Assembly: GCA_023250795.1 (NCBI GenBank)
Contig: JAHFAB010000020.1
Span: 1-12,234 of the forward strand
DNA: 12,234 bases
Origin: Bacteriovoracaceae bacterium
Lineage (GTDB): Bacteria > Bdellovibrionota > UBA1018
Reading direction: 5' to 3'
Shown here: one piece after another, positions 925 through 10,364 of the stretch
Position numbering within the stretch: the first letter of the stretch is position 1
Layout of the letters: each line of letters starts with the position of its first letter
Translations under genes and position numbers: made by a program
The notes under the pieces: generated by a model
Databases searched by the model: none
Seen by the model: the letters and a program-made list of their open reading frames with translations, nothing else
Told to the model about the DNA's origin: nothing

Positions 925-1089
925 GTGTGGAAACGTTTTTTATTTATTTCAATCATTCTGAGTTTACTGACAAGTTTGTCTTGGCTTTGTAAAATTGTCG
1001 AAAGCACTACCCACAGATCTCTCGCAACAAATGAAAATCATAAAACTGTTGAAGAACCTTTAGTAGTTGAGCCTATTGAACCGGAATAA
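925..1089 (+). CDS. Small 54-residue membrane-anchored or secreted protein, unknown
   Basis: A GTG at 925 opens a 54-codon frame ending with TAA at 1087-1089. The protein begins MWKRFLFISIILSLLTSLSW, a basic start and long hydrophobic segment typical of a signal peptide or single membrane anchor. It ends in a glutamate- and proline-rich tail (EEPLVVEPIEPE). It has no recognisable family. Support comes from the signal-like N-terminus, a consensus -10 box directly upstream, and the stop codon overlapping the Shine-Dalgarno AAAGGAG (1088-1094) of the transglycosylase gene, as expected for translational coupling. There is no clear Shine-Dalgarno for its own GTG. The reading is inferred from sequence shape only. 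Confidence 0.45.
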   Translation: MWKRFLFISIILSLLTSLSWLCKIVESTTHRSLATNENHKTVEEPLVVEPIEPE

Positions 1090-1094
1090 AGGAG
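1088..1094 (+). promoter_or_regulatory. Strong Shine-Dalgarno deciding the transglycosylase start
   Basis: AAAGGAG overlaps the TAA stop of the small upstream ORF and stands 8 nt before a TTG at 1103. This is the best ribosome-binding site in the area. It argues for translation from TTG 1103 rather than the TTG at 1067 (inside the small ORF) or the ATG at 1139 (no Shine-Dalgarno). Confidence 0.5.
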
Positions 1095-1102
1095 CGTATC
1101 GT

Positions 1103-1132
1103 TTGACAAGTTTTTGGACACTCGAATACAAT
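1103..1132 (+). promoter_or_regulatory. Sigma-70-like promoter TTGACA-N18-TACAAT
   Basis: TTGACA at 1103-1108 and TACAAT at 1127-1132 are separated by 18 nt. A start site seven bases further on would be about 1139, exactly the A of the ATG that begins MRVIPALF. If used, it would give a leaderless mRNA for a slightly shorter transglycosylase precursor. It overlaps the TTG start codon at 1103, so it may be a second promoter or a chance match. Confidence 0.4.
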
Positions 1133-2467
1133 AAGAAAATGAGGGTCATTCCTGCTCTGTTTATCGCCCTATTTGCCACCCTGTTTGTGGGAGGCTGTGC
1201 CCATATACGCAGGGAGAATTCTCCTAAAACAGTTGCTGAGGTCATACGCCAAGACCTGAAAGAGGATCAAAGTTCAAATTCTTTCAATAACCCCAAAGAA
1301 ATAACTGTGCGCGGCGTCAAACTACAAAACACCCAATTCGACATCCCCATTACGATCAATTCTAAAGTTGAACACTGGGTGGATTATTTTACTGGGAGAG
1401 GGAGAGAACACTTTGAACGTTACTTAGAACGTTCAGAGCTTTACATCCCTTATATTACCCCCATTTTAAAACAAAACGGTTTGCCTGAGGATCTCGTTTA
1501 TCTGGCGATGATTGAAAGCGGGTTTAACAACCATGCCCGTTCTCGAGCAAAAGCAGTGGGTCCATGGCAGTTTATCTCTGGAACTGGAAAAAAATATGGC
1601 TTGATGGTCAATTGGTGGGTTGATGAACGGAGAGATACAAAGAAATCTACTTTGGCTGCAGTTCAGTTTTTAAAAGATTTACACGAAATGTTTCAGAGCT
1701 GGGAACTTGCCATTGCTGCCTATAACTCAGGCGAATCGAAAATAATTAGAGCAATTCGAAGGTATGGCGTTTTTGATTTTTGGGTTATTTCTAAGCAAAG
1801 ATTCTTAAGACCTGAAACGAGAGACTATGTTCCAAAAATGATCGCAGCTGCACTGATTGCGAAAAATAGGACACAGTTTGGGTTTCAACCTTCCTCTTCG
1901 AAACCCATACAAGAAGAAACTCTTGTAGGTGATCTCAGTGCTTCAGAACTCACGGAACTCGAAATCGATGGACCCGCTGACCTACTCAAAATTGCCAGTG
2001 CAGCAGAGCTCCCCTATCCAACCATCAAAAATCTAAATCCTGAAATCCTAAGATGGTGTACTCCTCCTCAAACAGAAAGCTATAGAATCAAACTCCCCAC
2101 CAGTGTGAAAGACAAGTTTTTAGCAACCTACAATCACTCTGCTTTTCCTAAAAAAATAGAATTCATGACTTACAAAGTGCGAAAAGGAGAAAATATCACT
2201 CGAGTGGCTCGTCACTTTGGCATTCATTCAGACCCCATCAGTGAACTCAATCACCTCTCTCCGAAGTCACCCCTTCAAGTCGGTTCTCGTCTTTTTTTGC
2301 CCATGCCAAATGATCGCTCTCGAAGCCTTGCTTCATTGGAAATAAAAGACCCCCCTGAAAAACGGAAACACCATCGTAAAGGCTCTCGTAAACTTTACCG
2401 TGTGACATATAAAAATCGCGAGGGAGCCCGCGCTAAGCCAGTTCAGAGCTCTCGAGGGGACACCTAA
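1103..2467 (+). CDS. MltD-like lytic transglycosylase lipoprotein with LysM domain
   Basis: Predicted to cleave peptidoglycan glycan strands in the periplasm from a lipid anchor. From ATG 1139 the protein starts with a basic residue, a hydrophobic segment and the lipobox VGGC, so Cys would be the lipidated residue. From TTG 1103 there are 12 further N-terminal residues. The SLT domain is clear: YLAMIESGFNNHARSRAKAVG carries the catalytic Glu of AMIES (residue 138 from TTG), then GPWQFISGTGKKYGL and AIAAYNSGESKI. A LysM module (YKVRKGENITRVARHFGI...LFLPMP) lies near the C-terminus, followed by a basic tail (KRKHHRKGSRK). A region between SLT and LysM may be a degenerate second LysM. About 454 residues is in the usual range for the MltD family. 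It probably forms a transcription unit with the small ORF upstream. Confidence 0.88.
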   Translation: MTSFWTLEYNKKMRVIPALFIALFATLFVGGCAHIRRENSPKTVAEVIRQDLKEDQSSNSFNNPKEITVRGVKLQNTQFDIPITINSKVEHWVDYFTGRGREHFERYLERSELYIPYITPILKQNGLPEDLVYLAMIESGFNNHARSRAKAVGPWQFISGTGKKYGLMVNWWVDERRDTKKSTLAAVQFLKDLHEMFQSWELAIAAYNSGESKIIRAIRRYGVFDFWVISKQRFLRPETRDYVPKMIAAALIAKNRTQFGFQPSSSKPIQEETLVGDLSASELTELEIDGPADLLKIASAAELPYPTIKNLNPEILRWCTPPQTESYRIKLPTSVKDKFLATYNHSAFPKKIEFMTYKVRKGENITRVARHFGIHSDPISELNHLSPKSPLQVGSRLFLPMPNDRSRSLASLEIKDPPEKRKHHRKGSRKLYRVTYKNREGARAKPVQSSRGDT

Positions 2468-2477
2468 CCTCATTTCA

Positions 2478-2725
2478 AACATGCATCAAAACATGGGGTG
2501 AATTTCTTAGGTTGTATTTTCAAAATCATATAATTTTTAATCCTTTAAAATAATGGGATGAGGTGTCGGCACGGCATCCTGCCTTGGGACCCTCACGCTC
2601 TTCCATGAGCTGTGGACATCCATGTCCTCCCAACGCCTCACTCATCCCATTATTTTAAAGGATTAAAAATTATATGATTTTGAAAATACAACCTAAGAAA
2701 TTCACCCCATGTTTTGATGCATGTT
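2478..2725. repeat. 248-bp fold-back element, perfect 85-bp inverted arms
   Basis: Bases 2478-2562 and 2641-2725 are exact reverse complements over 85 of 85 positions, separated by a 78-nt centre. The arms are AT-rich (about 27% GC) and the centre GC-rich (about 62%). The outermost ends include ATGCAT. No transposase is inside, and no target-site duplication directly abuts the arms. The element fills the gap between the transglycosylase stop and lysC. A transcript through it would fold into an extremely long hairpin, so it could isolate the two genes. A non-autonomous mobile element (MITE-like or fold-back) is the most natural reading; regulatory hairpin is the alternative. Confidence 0.85.
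2560..2639. other. Structured GC-rich core of the fold-back element
   Basis: The centre has nested complementarity. GAGGTGT (2560-2566) pairs with ACGCCTC (2633-2639) with one G-T wobble, GGCA-TCC-TGCC (2573-2583) forms a hairpin, and TTGGGA (2584-2589) pairs with TCCCAA (2628-2633). Inside that lie CACGCTC/GAGCTGTG with one bulge and GGACAT-CC-ATGTCC (2614-2627). The first and third stems share base 2633, and the first shares its GAG with the long arms, so alternative foldings compete. The pairings are read by eye and no energy was computed. It could be the functional centre of a mobile element or an RNA. Confidence 0.4.
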
Positions 2726-2742: not shown

Positions 2743-2766
2743 TGCTATATCCCATAGATCTATGGG
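2743..2766 (+). promoter_or_regulatory. Extended -10 and 16-bp palindrome over the lysC start
   Basis: TG-C-TATATC at 2743-2751 resembles an extended -10 promoter, with a start expected about 2758. CCCATAGATCTATGGG at 2751-2766 is a perfect palindrome containing the ATG of lysC at 2762. No Shine-Dalgarno is visible. The palindrome could be an operator, or in RNA a 6-bp hairpin with loop GATC holding the start codon. Both readings are inference. Confidence 0.4.
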
Positions 2767-3940
2767 CCTTATCGTACAAAAATATGGTGGAACCTCTGTA
2801 GATTCCCCCGAACACATCAGAACAGTCGCTCAGAAAATTACTCAAACACGACAACAAGGTCATTCTCTCATTGTAGTAGTTAGCGCAATGGGCCATACCA
2901 CTGATGAACTCATAGCTCTTGCCCATCGCGTGTCAGCAAAACCGCCTCACCGCGAAATGGACATGCTCCTCTCGACAGGGGAAAGAATCTCGATGGCTCT
3001 GCTAAGCATGGCTTTAGCTGAACAAAATACGGCAGCTGTTTCGTATACTGGATCACAGTCTGGAATTATTACTGATGAAAGCCACCGATGTGCAAAAATT
3101 CGAAAAATTCTTGGGGATCGAGTGAAAAAATCTTTGTCCGAAGAAAAAGTAGTCATAGTCGCTGGATTTCAAGGAGTCAGTGAAAGCAAAGAGATCACTA
3201 CACTGGGGCGCGGAGGATCTGATACCACAGCAATCGCTCTTGCAGCTGCTTTAGGAGCTGAGGTCTGTGACATCTACACAGACGTAGACGGAGTTTATTC
3301 TGCAGACCCAAGTATAGTGCCTGATGCAAAGCTGTTAAAAAAAGTTTCGTATTCATTTATGATCGAAATGTCTTCTCTAGGTGCTGGAGTGCTCCACCCA
3401 CGCTGTGTAGAAATGGCTCGGCGATATGGTGTAAAAATGAGAGTAAAAAACAGTTTAAACCAAAACGAAGGAACTGAGGTTGTTATGGAAGAAGTAAGAG
3501 TAACTGGGGTGACGTCCGACGATTCTAAAATCCTTCTCAAAATAAAACTCATGCGCGCAACAACACTCTCCTCGATCTGGGATCAAGCAGCTTTATCAAA
3601 TCTGACTTTTTTAGCCCCTTTCTTCTCAGACGGAAGTGTGCGCTGCTTCATCGAAAGAAATTCAGAACCAGAGTGGAAAAAATTCTTAGAAAAGCTAAAA
3701 CTCGAAGGTTTTGTACAGGAATACGAGTTCTTTCATTCCTTAATTCCTGTATCCTTAGTGGGAAGTCATTTTTTGCATGATGGGAAAGCACTTTGCTCAG
3801 TTTTAAGTCGGCTTTCTGAAAATGGGATCCAAGTAACCGATGGGGTGGCTTCTCCCATGGCAATTACTTTGGCAGTGCCACGGAACCACATGAAAGAAGC
3901 AGTACAGTGTTTACATCAGAAATTCGTGATAGAATCCTAG
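2762..3940 (+). CDS. lysC: Aspartokinase with diverged regulatory domain
   Basis: Phosphorylates aspartate, the first step toward lysine, threonine, methionine and diaminopimelate. The 392-residue length fits a monofunctional aspartokinase. Kinase motifs are intact: KYGGTSV at 7-13, STGERISMALLS, GRGGSDTTA at 149-157, YTDVDGVYSADP near 172-183 and SSLGAGVLHPRCVEMA at 204-219. The start is placed at ATG 2762 because MGLIVQKYGGTS is the normal N-terminus; codons further upstream lie in the fold-back arm. The C-terminal ~145 residues sit where two ACT domains belong, but the usual effector-binding pattern is poorly kept. For example, the second unit reads VSLVGSHFLHDGKALCSVLS and then IQVTDGVASPMAITLAV. 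Feedback control may therefore be altered. The next gene begins 3 nt after the stop. Confidence 0.9.
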   Translation: MGLIVQKYGGTSVDSPEHIRTVAQKITQTRQQGHSLIVVVSAMGHTTDELIALAHRVSAKPPHREMDMLLSTGERISMALLSMALAEQNTAAVSYTGSQSGIITDESHRCAKIRKILGDRVKKSLSEEKVVIVAGFQGVSESKEITTLGRGGSDTTAIALAAALGAEVCDIYTDVDGVYSADPSIVPDAKLLKKVSYSFMIEMSSLGAGVLHPRCVEMARRYGVKMRVKNSLNQNEGTEVVMEEVRVTGVTSDDSKILLKIKLMRATTLSSIWDQAALSNLTFLAPFFSDGSVRCFIERNSEPEWKKFLEKLKLEGFVQEYEFFHSLIPVSLVGSHFLHDGKALCSVLSRLSENGIQVTDGVASPMAITLAVPRNHMKEAVQCLHQKFVIES

Positions 3941-8308: not shown

Positions 8309-9553
8309 TCAGAGGGTAGGCCTCACTGACCGGAATTGATGAACGGGTAAATGTCCTGCAGATGTAATTTCGATTATAAACTTTGGAATAAACGTTTTTT
8401 TCGTGATTTTGACACTTTGAATTTTATCCCAACTGTAGGCTTGAGATTCGCGATTATTTATTTGAACTGTTTGCAACAATAGATGACCATCAGAACTTCG
8501 TGCAAATGAATAGGGTTCAATATCTTGACAGGTGCCGTTGTAACCAAGTGTTACAATCAAACGATTTGCTGCGGAAAATCGAATACAATCTAAAAATGAT
8601 GTCGCTTTTCCTGGAAGAAAAAGAGAGGATACAGCTTCTTTTTTAACTGCTGATTCTGATTCATTTGCTTTAGAAACTAAAAGTTGATTGAGTTCTTCAA
8701 TTTTCTCTCCTTTTAGCCATTTAAACAGTTGTGGGAGGTCTGATAAAAAGCTTTGAAAATTTGGAAGAATGGGAATTTGATGTTTGAGCTGGGTTTCCCA
8801 TTCAGACTGAAGAAAGTGCCAATTGTCATGTTTTTCAACTGATTTTATTGTTGGAATGGCAACCCCACGCAGAGCACATTTTTTTTCAAGTGTTGAGTAG
8901 ACGACATCCCGATCAGGCTCAAGATCCATCCTGCGATGTAGGTGAATCACATCATAAAGATCGCGAGGTCTAAGACGTTGAGCAAGTGCTCTTATTTTTT
9001 CTGCAAAAACTTCTTCATAATGATAAGCCGAAATCAAGAATCCACTCGATGGATTATCTGAATAACGATGTTCTACTTGTTTAATCACAGCTGGAAGCAC
9101 AAGTGGTTCATCAAGAGTGAGATCAATTTTTATTCTTTGCATTTGAGCAAGACCTACATTTGGTCTTACCGGACCACGGTATTTGATACCACCTTGAATA
9201 GAATATGCCCCGCGAGGAGTTCTGAACATTTCAAATTCTATTGAAGCTTTTTGGAATTCCATTCCAGATGCTTCATAAATGAGATCAGAAATATCTGCAA
9301 AAATATGGTTCAACTCATCAACTGTAGGAGGGGTTTTTCCACAAAAACTAAAATCAAGGTCTTCAGAAAATCGATAGGTTTCAAAATAACATTTTTTTAG
9401 ACAAGTGCCACCTTTAAAAACCCAACTATTTTTAGTGAATGGATGTTGAAAAATACCCATAAGTAGCCATCCAAGTGCATAATCTTTTTCGACCACTGTA
9501 TTAGCAAGTGAAACCTGTGCTGCAACTTCACGAATCTCATCTATATTAATCAC
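8309..9553 (-). CDS. abiEii: AbiEii-type nucleotidyltransferase toxin with extra C-terminal domain
   Basis: Toxin of a type IV toxin-antitoxin system. Family knowledge: AbiEii proteins are GTP-binding polymerase-beta-fold nucleotidyltransferases that arrest growth and can abort phage infection. Motifs: EKD at 22-24; FKGGTCLKK (46-54) with the GGT signature; RFSEDLDFSF (61-70) with the metal-binding D65/D67; KID at 142-144; and EEVFAEKIRALAQRLRPRDLYD (180-201). The toxin core ends near residue 290. The rest (316-395) is an extra region with IRFSAANRLIVTLGYNG, DIEPYSFARSSDGHLLLQ and WDKIQSVKITKKTFIPKF, which by eye resembles a WYL-type sensing domain. The length of 414 exceeds the usual ~300. 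The start is GTG 9553 with GGGGGA just upstream, overlapping the antitoxin stop by 8 nt. Confidence 0.85.
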   Translation of the reverse strand: MINIDEIREVAAQVSLANTVVEKDYALGWLLMGIFQHPFTKNSWVFKGGTCLKKCYFETYRFSEDLDFSFCGKTPPTVDELNHIFADISDLIYEASGMEFQKASIEFEMFRTPRGAYSIQGGIKYRGPVRPNVGLAQMQRIKIDLTLDEPLVLPAVIKQVEHRYSDNPSSGFLISAYHYEEVFAEKIRALAQRLRPRDLYDVIHLHRRMDLEPDRDVVYSTLEKKCALRGVAIPTIKSVEKHDNWHFLQSEWETQLKHQIPILPNFQSFLSDLPQLFKWLKGEKIEELNQLLVSKANESESAVKKEAVSSLFLPGKATSFLDCIRFSAANRLIVTLGYNGTCQDIEPYSFARSSDGHLLLQTVQINNRESQAYSWDKIQSVKITKKTFIPKFIIEITSAGHLPVHQFRSVRPTL

Positions 9554-10364
9554 AGAGTCCCCCTTTCTTCCATTTTAGAGGAACCCAGAGTCCCCATGAT
9601 GTAATCAAGGCGTCCCCAGGAACTGATGGATCGACTTGGGAATAGCCGGTCTTTATTTTAGAGTGAAATTTTTCAATCCAATCTACCTCTTTAGGATATT
9701 TTTTTTCAAAAATGAATCCAATGCGCTTGAAAATAGCTGTGTTTTTCATTCGAATGCCGTAATCATAAAGCAACTTTATATTTTTATGTTCAGAAGTCAT
9801 GTATCGGTCTAATATGTCAATCGCGATTCTGATGCCGCCGACAGTTGCTGGATCATTAAAGGAATCTATAATAGTCTTCGTTGGATCAGAAACCTCTACC
9901 TTATGATGTTCGATCCAAATCGATTTAATACCAAAGAGACGTTCAGGTTTTATAACTTTTAATTTGAACGTTACTCCTTTGAGGTTCATTTCCAGATTGT
10001 TATTTCTTTTTGTAGTTAAGACCATTACTGAATTAAAAATCTGCTCAGTAAAATCCCAGTGTTCTGCCGCACTCCAACCACCTACGTAACAAGGTGAGAA
10101 GAGGCTTTTTGCAATCACCCATGGTTCATCAACCATAACATTAGGATTTTCAGTCTGAAGAGGAATGGGAATGTAGACTCCGCGTTTAACTCGAGAAAGC
10201 CAACCTTTGTGTGCCCAATGAGACAAGAGCCAGGCGGCTTTTTTTTGAGTAATTTTAAGAACTACCGCTGCATTTTTGGGTGTAATGATAGGGAGATGTG
10301 CCTTGATCAGCTGCCCTAATTGAAATCGTTCCTTCTTTCCAAGTCCACCTAATTTTACTTCCAT
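9546..10364 (-). CDS. abiEi: AbiEi-type antitoxin and transcriptional regulator
   Basis: The 272-residue antitoxin precedes its toxin, the usual order of type IV AbiE pairs. Residues 13-68 form a winged helix-turn-helix: LIKAHLPIITPKNAAVVLKI and TQKKAAWLLSHWAHKGWLSR, then VKRGVYIPIPL as the wing. The remainder, including EPWVIAKSLFSPCYVGGWSAAEHW and DPTKTIIDSF, is the AbiEi_4-type C-terminal body with antitoxin function. Family knowledge: AbiEi represses its own promoter by binding inverted repeats, and such repeats lie directly upstream here. The last codons overlap the toxin start by 8 nt, so expression is coupled. The start is ATG 10364, with no Shine-Dalgarno and a predicted leader of only about 12 nt. 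Confidence 0.85.
   Translation of the reverse strand: MEVKLGGLGKKERFQLGQLIKAHLPIITPKNAAVVLKITQKKAAWLLSHWAHKGWLSRVKRGVYIPIPLQTENPNVMVDEPWVIAKSLFSPCYVGGWSAAEHWDFTEQIFNSVMVLTTKRNNNLEMNLKGVTFKLKVIKPERLFGIKSIWIEHHKVEVSDPTKTIIDSFNDPATVGGIRIAIDILDRYMTSEHKNIKLLYDYGIRMKNTAIFKRIGFIFEKKYPKEVDWIEKFHSKIKTGYSQVDPSVPGDALITSWGLWVPLKWKKGGLCD

Follow-up and report, generated by a model that had tools for sequence, protein, structure and literature searches.

A fold-back element upstream of lysC in a Bacteriovoracaceae genome belongs to a MITE-like family whose arms may be recopied from each other

RUP of Streptococcus pneumoniae is an example of a MITE linked to IS630. The repeat considered here lies in the window, namely the whole 12,234-nucleotide stretch of Bacteriovoracaceae contig JAHFAB010000020.1 that was analysed, and belongs to a family resembling MITEs of the IS630/Tc1 type, as treated in the consulted sections of a review (PMC10969869), in being short, non-coding and dispersed, and in having inverted repeats, TA ends and, in a sister genus, empty sites at CTAG. 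Unlike the elements described in those sections, copies in the window's genome present arms that are copy-specific yet self-identical, together with a core that is better conserved than the arms. Long perfect palindromes that evolve in concert, and for which template switching was proposed, are known from mitochondrial genes of Nematomorpha (PMC6649704). These share with the present family long perfect inverted repeats and arms evolving in concert but, going by the part of that report drawn upon here, are mitochondrial and coding, with neither a shared core nor dispersal as a repeat family. Template-switch mutations also create or mend RNA stems, according to the relevant portion of another study (PMC8794818); such stems are short and found in RNA genes, whereas the arms considered here measure 37-87 bp, the common point being a mechanism that makes or restores perfect stems. 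In the hairpin elements of sponge mitochondria, likewise dispersed and intergenic, stems are conserved and loops vary, as far as the passages used go (PMC2800124), which is the reverse of the situation in the window family. Finally, REP and REPIN sequences are also dispersed extragenic palindromes, with the REPs being 20-40 bp long and associated with Y1 transposases in the sections consulted (PMC3733652, PMC2817692). Neither concerted arms nor growth into the flank nor tip exchange was found for an element of this kind in those portions of the open-licence literature that were covered, and all three may still be published.

The element in the window starts 10 nt past the stop codon of a gene encoding transglycosylase SLT and LysM domains and ends 36 nt ahead of the ATG of lysC (2762). 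The features of this region are as follows.

1067..2467, + strand: upstream gene with transglycosylase SLT and LysM domains (domain matches, ORF list)
2478..2562, + strand: left arm of the fold-back element, 85 nt, every base of which pairs with 2641-2725
2508..2509, no strand: TA, the probable left outer end of the family-wide inverted repeat, as judged from other copies
2563..2640, + strand: GC-rich multi-hairpin core of subfamily A, the part kept between copies; repeated in the genome, with a core identity of 0.926 (12 copies)
2573..2583, + strand: core hairpin 1 (GGCA-TCC-TGCC), predicted fold; stem retained in 21-22 of 22 aligned cores
2597..2610, + strand: core hairpin 2 (GCTC-TTCCAT-GAGC), predicted fold; consensus pair T-A changed to C-G in 10 of 22 aligned cores
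2614..2627, + strand: core hairpin 3 (GGACAT-CC-ATGTCC), predicted fold, read from the sequence
2641..2725, + strand: right arm of the fold-back element, 85 nt, complementary to 2478-2562
2694..2695, no strand: mirror-image TA on the right side, likewise placed from other copies
2762..3940, + strand: downstream aspartokinase-like gene (lysC) with an AA_kinase domain (domain matches, ORF list, protein relatives)

The two arms are complementary at 85 of 85 positions (100%) and are separated by a spacer of 78 nt. The RNA fold predicted for the element strand reaches -159.7 kcal/mol, as compared to a mean of -50.6 (sd 4.5) for 200 shuffled versions (z -24.3). Together with simulations that yielded no comparable repeat, these values confirm the fold-back structure noted in the preliminary description. 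The 30 nt outside the left TA (2478-2507) are, as far as seen, common to only two other copies, C383 and C82. At 248 bp, the element is short and contains neither a transposase gene nor an internal ORF of at least 80 aa; the one called ORF that begins within it, at 2714, corresponds to the upstream-extended lysC frame. A tRNA scan of the window found nothing to account for the element. The nearest named relatives of LysC (L035-L047; 50-60% identity) come from metagenome-assembled genomes labelled Oligoflexia, Bacteriovoracaceae, Bdellovibrio/Bdellovibrionales or Deltaproteobacteria, so that the host is probably an uncultured member of this group.

The window's genome (G000) is available as a 2.43 Mb draft of 473 contigs that is 77% complete, and a DNA search revealed the core on many of these contigs. 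A covariance model built from 22 core sequences was used for genome searches and, with E values up to 1, detected 15 cores in the window's genome, 25 in G009 and 26 in G027, the latter two being species of a single sister genus with drafts that are 82% and 75% complete, respectively. Two weak matches to the model (G009:C190 and G027:C44) were left out of later counts. The search of the whole genome and of relatives that the preliminary description had proposed thus returned many dispersed copies, which excludes a single copy conserved at this locus in all relatives. At the family level (E up to 0.001), the core was present in 6 of 35 genomes, and at the phylum level (E up to 0.0001, stricter filters) in 8 of 368, the window's own genome being included both times; these counts are lower bounds, since the model missed the copies in G002. 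One of the eight phylum-level matches, in G328 (L229), lacks long arms and was set aside as a probable chance match. Genome G202, assembled as one contig and 100% complete, contains two copies, the arms of which differ between the copies, yet match within each. A blastn search of the core against plasmids and phages gave no match, and a 29-base core pattern found nothing when scanned over genome contigs and viral contigs. By mechanical ORF calls, the ORFs on either side of 34 elements are tandem in 16 cases, convergent in 10 and divergent in 7, with one unknown; for 7 of the 10 convergent elements, each arm end is at most 20 nt away from a called ORF end, a figure uncontrolled for the general shortness of gaps in the genome.

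In 75 unmasked sequences of the window's genome (470 kb), a set that is non-random in that element-bearing contigs were included on purpose, 28 inverted repeats reached the threshold. Fourteen contain core A and, by reading, nine of the other 14 carry another GC-rich hairpin core. Order-2 Markov simulations of 470 kb gave no comparable inverted repeat in any of five rounds, and 14 loci of named relatives (109,640 bases) hold two such repeats. Inverted repeats with other GC-rich cores include those at L262 2335-2557 (82/82 paired), L271 10543-10696 (44/44), L273 7152-7293 (38/38) and L296 5000-5154 (46/54). A perfect 64-bp palindrome with no spacer, beginning CTAG, occupies L302 1323-1386.

When 12 subfamily A copies were aligned with gaps, arms within a copy were found to be 0.989 identical, while between-copy identity was 0.577 for the arms (first 60 columns) as opposed to 0.926 for the core. 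Each of the 12 left arms had its own right arm as nearest arm, as did 14 of 14 in the second subfamily, C. All 26 copies had been trimmed to the inverted repeat, a step that favours mirrored counts; with this in mind, departures from the consensus were mirrored on both arms 170 times and confined to one arm 8 times in subfamily A, with the corresponding values for subfamily C being 202 and 0. Omitted from these counts were C82, which is cut by a contig end, and C75 and C34:983, which have short cores, in subfamily A, as well as L299, L267, L304, L358 and one-arm matches in subfamily C. The result agrees with that obtained with untrimmed 40-nt arms, considered in subfamily A only and for 14 of its 15 copies (C82 being omitted), where 9 of 560 positions were mismatched within copies and 10 of 14 copies had identical arms, while different copies showed a mean of 20.4 differences in 40 (ungapped; minimum 3). 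Such near-perfect self-matching alongside wide differences between copies suggests regular recopying of one arm from its partner. The preliminary description had taken the perfect arms to be recent, selected or converted; conversion best fits these data because homologous arms differ so much between copies, yet do so in mirrored fashion, with recent origin and selection fitting less well. Recopying would not be universal, given that arm similarity falls to about 87% in the sister genus (24 and 25 copies) and that the orthologous pairs C171/C38 and C139/C104 present few arm changes, each on one arm only.

Arms were also seen to extend into flanking sequence. In C123, C447 and C107, perfect arms continue past the family-like part into sequence unseen in other copies; a protein search with the gene beside C447, bearing on which arm is ancestral, found only that gene itself. 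The G025 arm lying opposite a tRNA-Gln gene terminates in an inverted, decayed copy of that gene's 3' part; a piece of this copy is also present at the orthologous locus of G002. Opposite a tRNA-Ala gene of G025, a shorter stretch of the tRNA 3' end lies in inverted copy. At the tRNA-Gln locus, the inner arms differ between G002 and G025, yet pair within each species, such that this one orthologous locus fits mirrored change within a locus. Downstream of tRNA-Gln in G002 (L233, near 3631-3673), the tRNA 3' end recurs as a direct repeat, the kind of trace that an integrated element leaves.

Tips, too, appear to have been exchanged. At the orthologous locus G009:C172/G027:C332, the flanks and outermost repeats agree while the inner arms and core are unlike and fall into separate subfamilies, from which replacement of the hairpin tip can clearly be read. 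Within the window's genome, C286 combines a tip of subfamily A with outer arms that resemble subfamily C, a 21-nt match being present in both arms (95%, E 0.02), and the arms of C110 (A tip) and C162 (C tip) are unlike those of their own family. The pair C143/C75 also differs between species but, as the interior of the element aligns poorly, was not used as proof of tip exchange. Elsewhere, in G027:C93 (L190), an array of small hairpins is found within the loop of core hairpin 1, and the orthologous G009 copy (pair C85/C93) does not contain this array.

Evidence for movement comes from G027:C230, where two copies correspond to places in G009 that do not contain the element. Both empty sites are continuous and located at CTAG. 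If the ends are set at the conserved repeat, TA is duplicated at both insertions, one right-hand TA now being TG; the flank matches share 11 and 7 nt at the two insertions, so that a longer duplication is formally possible, and the second insertion comprises about 60 nt extra past the right arm. A DNA search for empty sites in G002, G028 and G032 showed that G002 has an orthologous copy in place of an empty site. The end of a sister-genus element, CTAGTACACTGGAACATTAATTTTTT, is similar, as judged by eye only, to the perfect 35-bp end, CTAGTACCTCGGCAACTTAATTTTTTCCGGATTTG, of an insertion sequence in the window's genome (L259 1371-2764, G000:C109). This insertion sequence encodes a DDE_3 transposase and its ends begin CTAG; the arms of subfamilies A and C show only 7-11 nt matches to this locus. 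No transposase was found upon searching for PF13358/DDE_3 in the G009 and G027 drafts (82% and 75% complete). Unlike what the consulted sections report for REP and REPIN sequences, these same drafts are without a PF01797 match; a Y1 (REP-type) transposase as driver is unsupported, with no such match in G014 either and three in G000, all counted in incomplete drafts.

Dispersed copies and, in the sister genus, two empty sites at CTAG and IS630-like ends (by eye) lead us to consider the family as a non-autonomous mobile element. As such, this assignment, already made in the preliminary description, stands for the family, which has many copies, is non-coding and, in the sister genus, offers two empty sites; neither an empty site nor a target duplication was seen for the copy in the window. 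An influence of the arms on lysC expression or on replication, as raised in the preliminary description, would be hypothetical. Judging from sequence, the family would work like a MITE, and the sister-genus empty sites are as expected of the IS630 type. Insertion of the DNA at TA within CTAG, as observed for the sister genus, is presumed to extend to the window's genome, and the window's own subfamily may have been mobilised in IS630 fashion, with recurrent TA at the likely ends being the sole pointer in this direction.

The reading favoured here, given a probability of about 0.55, is that the window holds a non-autonomous MITE-like fold-back element in which hairpin-templated DNA synthesis serves to recopy either arm from its partner. 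The element has a GC-rich core of several hairpins flanked by AT-rich inverted repeats, and its family would have moved as DNA into TA within CTAG. Once in place, a strand would fold into a hairpin during replication, with the growing strand switching template between arms, presumably by template switching in the biochemical sense. A mutation in one arm would then be either erased or copied to the opposite arm, such that the arms stay identical, while a switch overrunning the arm end would copy the flank in inverted form, letting the arms lengthen into sequence specific to the locus. Tips would be swapped when the switch takes place between two hairpins, probably within A/T tracts. Hairpin-templated recopying is favoured because it accounts both for the few one-arm changes and for divergent arms beside conserved cores, and its overrunning of the arm end would explain the inverted flank copies.

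Similar arms would be expected if the copies were simply young, the second arm and flank extension having been made once at insertion by snap-back copying, with no later recopying. Arms in the sister genus do decay normally after insertion, and a single event would fit C110 and C286, where truncated family arms are followed by locus-specific ones, but homologous arms differ strongly between copies with cores that are 93% alike, and the tRNA-Gln copies of two species, although orthologous, are unlike in both arms, rendering this account rather doubtful. More far-reaching is the idea that the spreading unit is the hairpin tip (core and inner arms), which would hop by template switching without a transposase and rebuild both arms from the local flank, hairpins being propagated by replication alone. 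The replacement at C172/C332, the hybrid C286 and the tips carried by unrelated arms in C110 and C162 agree with this idea. The empty sites show that the sister genus has transposition of the ordinary kind as well, and overall the idea is considered unlikely.

Three further explanations fare less well against the same observations. Were the element to insert at the centre of pre-existing palindromes or hairpin tips, outer arms would reflect nested insertion, in line with the palindromic sequence outside the presumed TA in several copies and with the hairpin arrays inside a hairpin loop (C85/C93). Yet neither of the two targets in the sister genus is a long palindrome, the sequence at L302 is the only comparable spacer-free palindrome in 470 kb, and hybrids such as C286 have truncated, incomplete inner ends, all of which make nested insertion improbable. 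Still less credit is given to a selected structured RNA or terminator, in which paired changes would be retained because the stem matters. Paired changes do occur in the small core stems, but an Rfam search of the window at gathering score returned no match, a promoter/terminator scan of the window detected no terminator-like site inside the element, and neither the sequence nor the length of the arms is kept between copies. Moreover, one-arm changes number just 8/178 and 0/202, whereas selection should leave many of these, given that a 70-bp stem tolerates single mismatches. Collapse of near-identical arms into one sequence during assembly might be suspected in a 473-contig draft where C82 stops partway through an arm and contig ends hold some of the subfamily C matches. 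Such collapse may hide a few mismatches but cannot create mirrored divergence between copies; the complete, single-contig G202 behaves alike, and each flank has its own gene where both flanks could be read. An artefact of this kind is thus highly improbable.

Hairpin-templated correction is a known mutation mechanism. If hairpin-templated recopying indeed takes place here, tens of repeats of 37-87 bp with nearly all arm changes mirrored would offer a natural readout of the frequency and reach of such correction. Caution is also advised in that terminal inverted repeats need not be the original ends of a transposon but may have grown into host flank.

Further along the window, positions 8309-10364 on the - strand contain adjacent genes with AbiEii (toxin) and AbiEi_4 (antitoxin) domains, likely corresponding to a type IV toxin-antitoxin pair.
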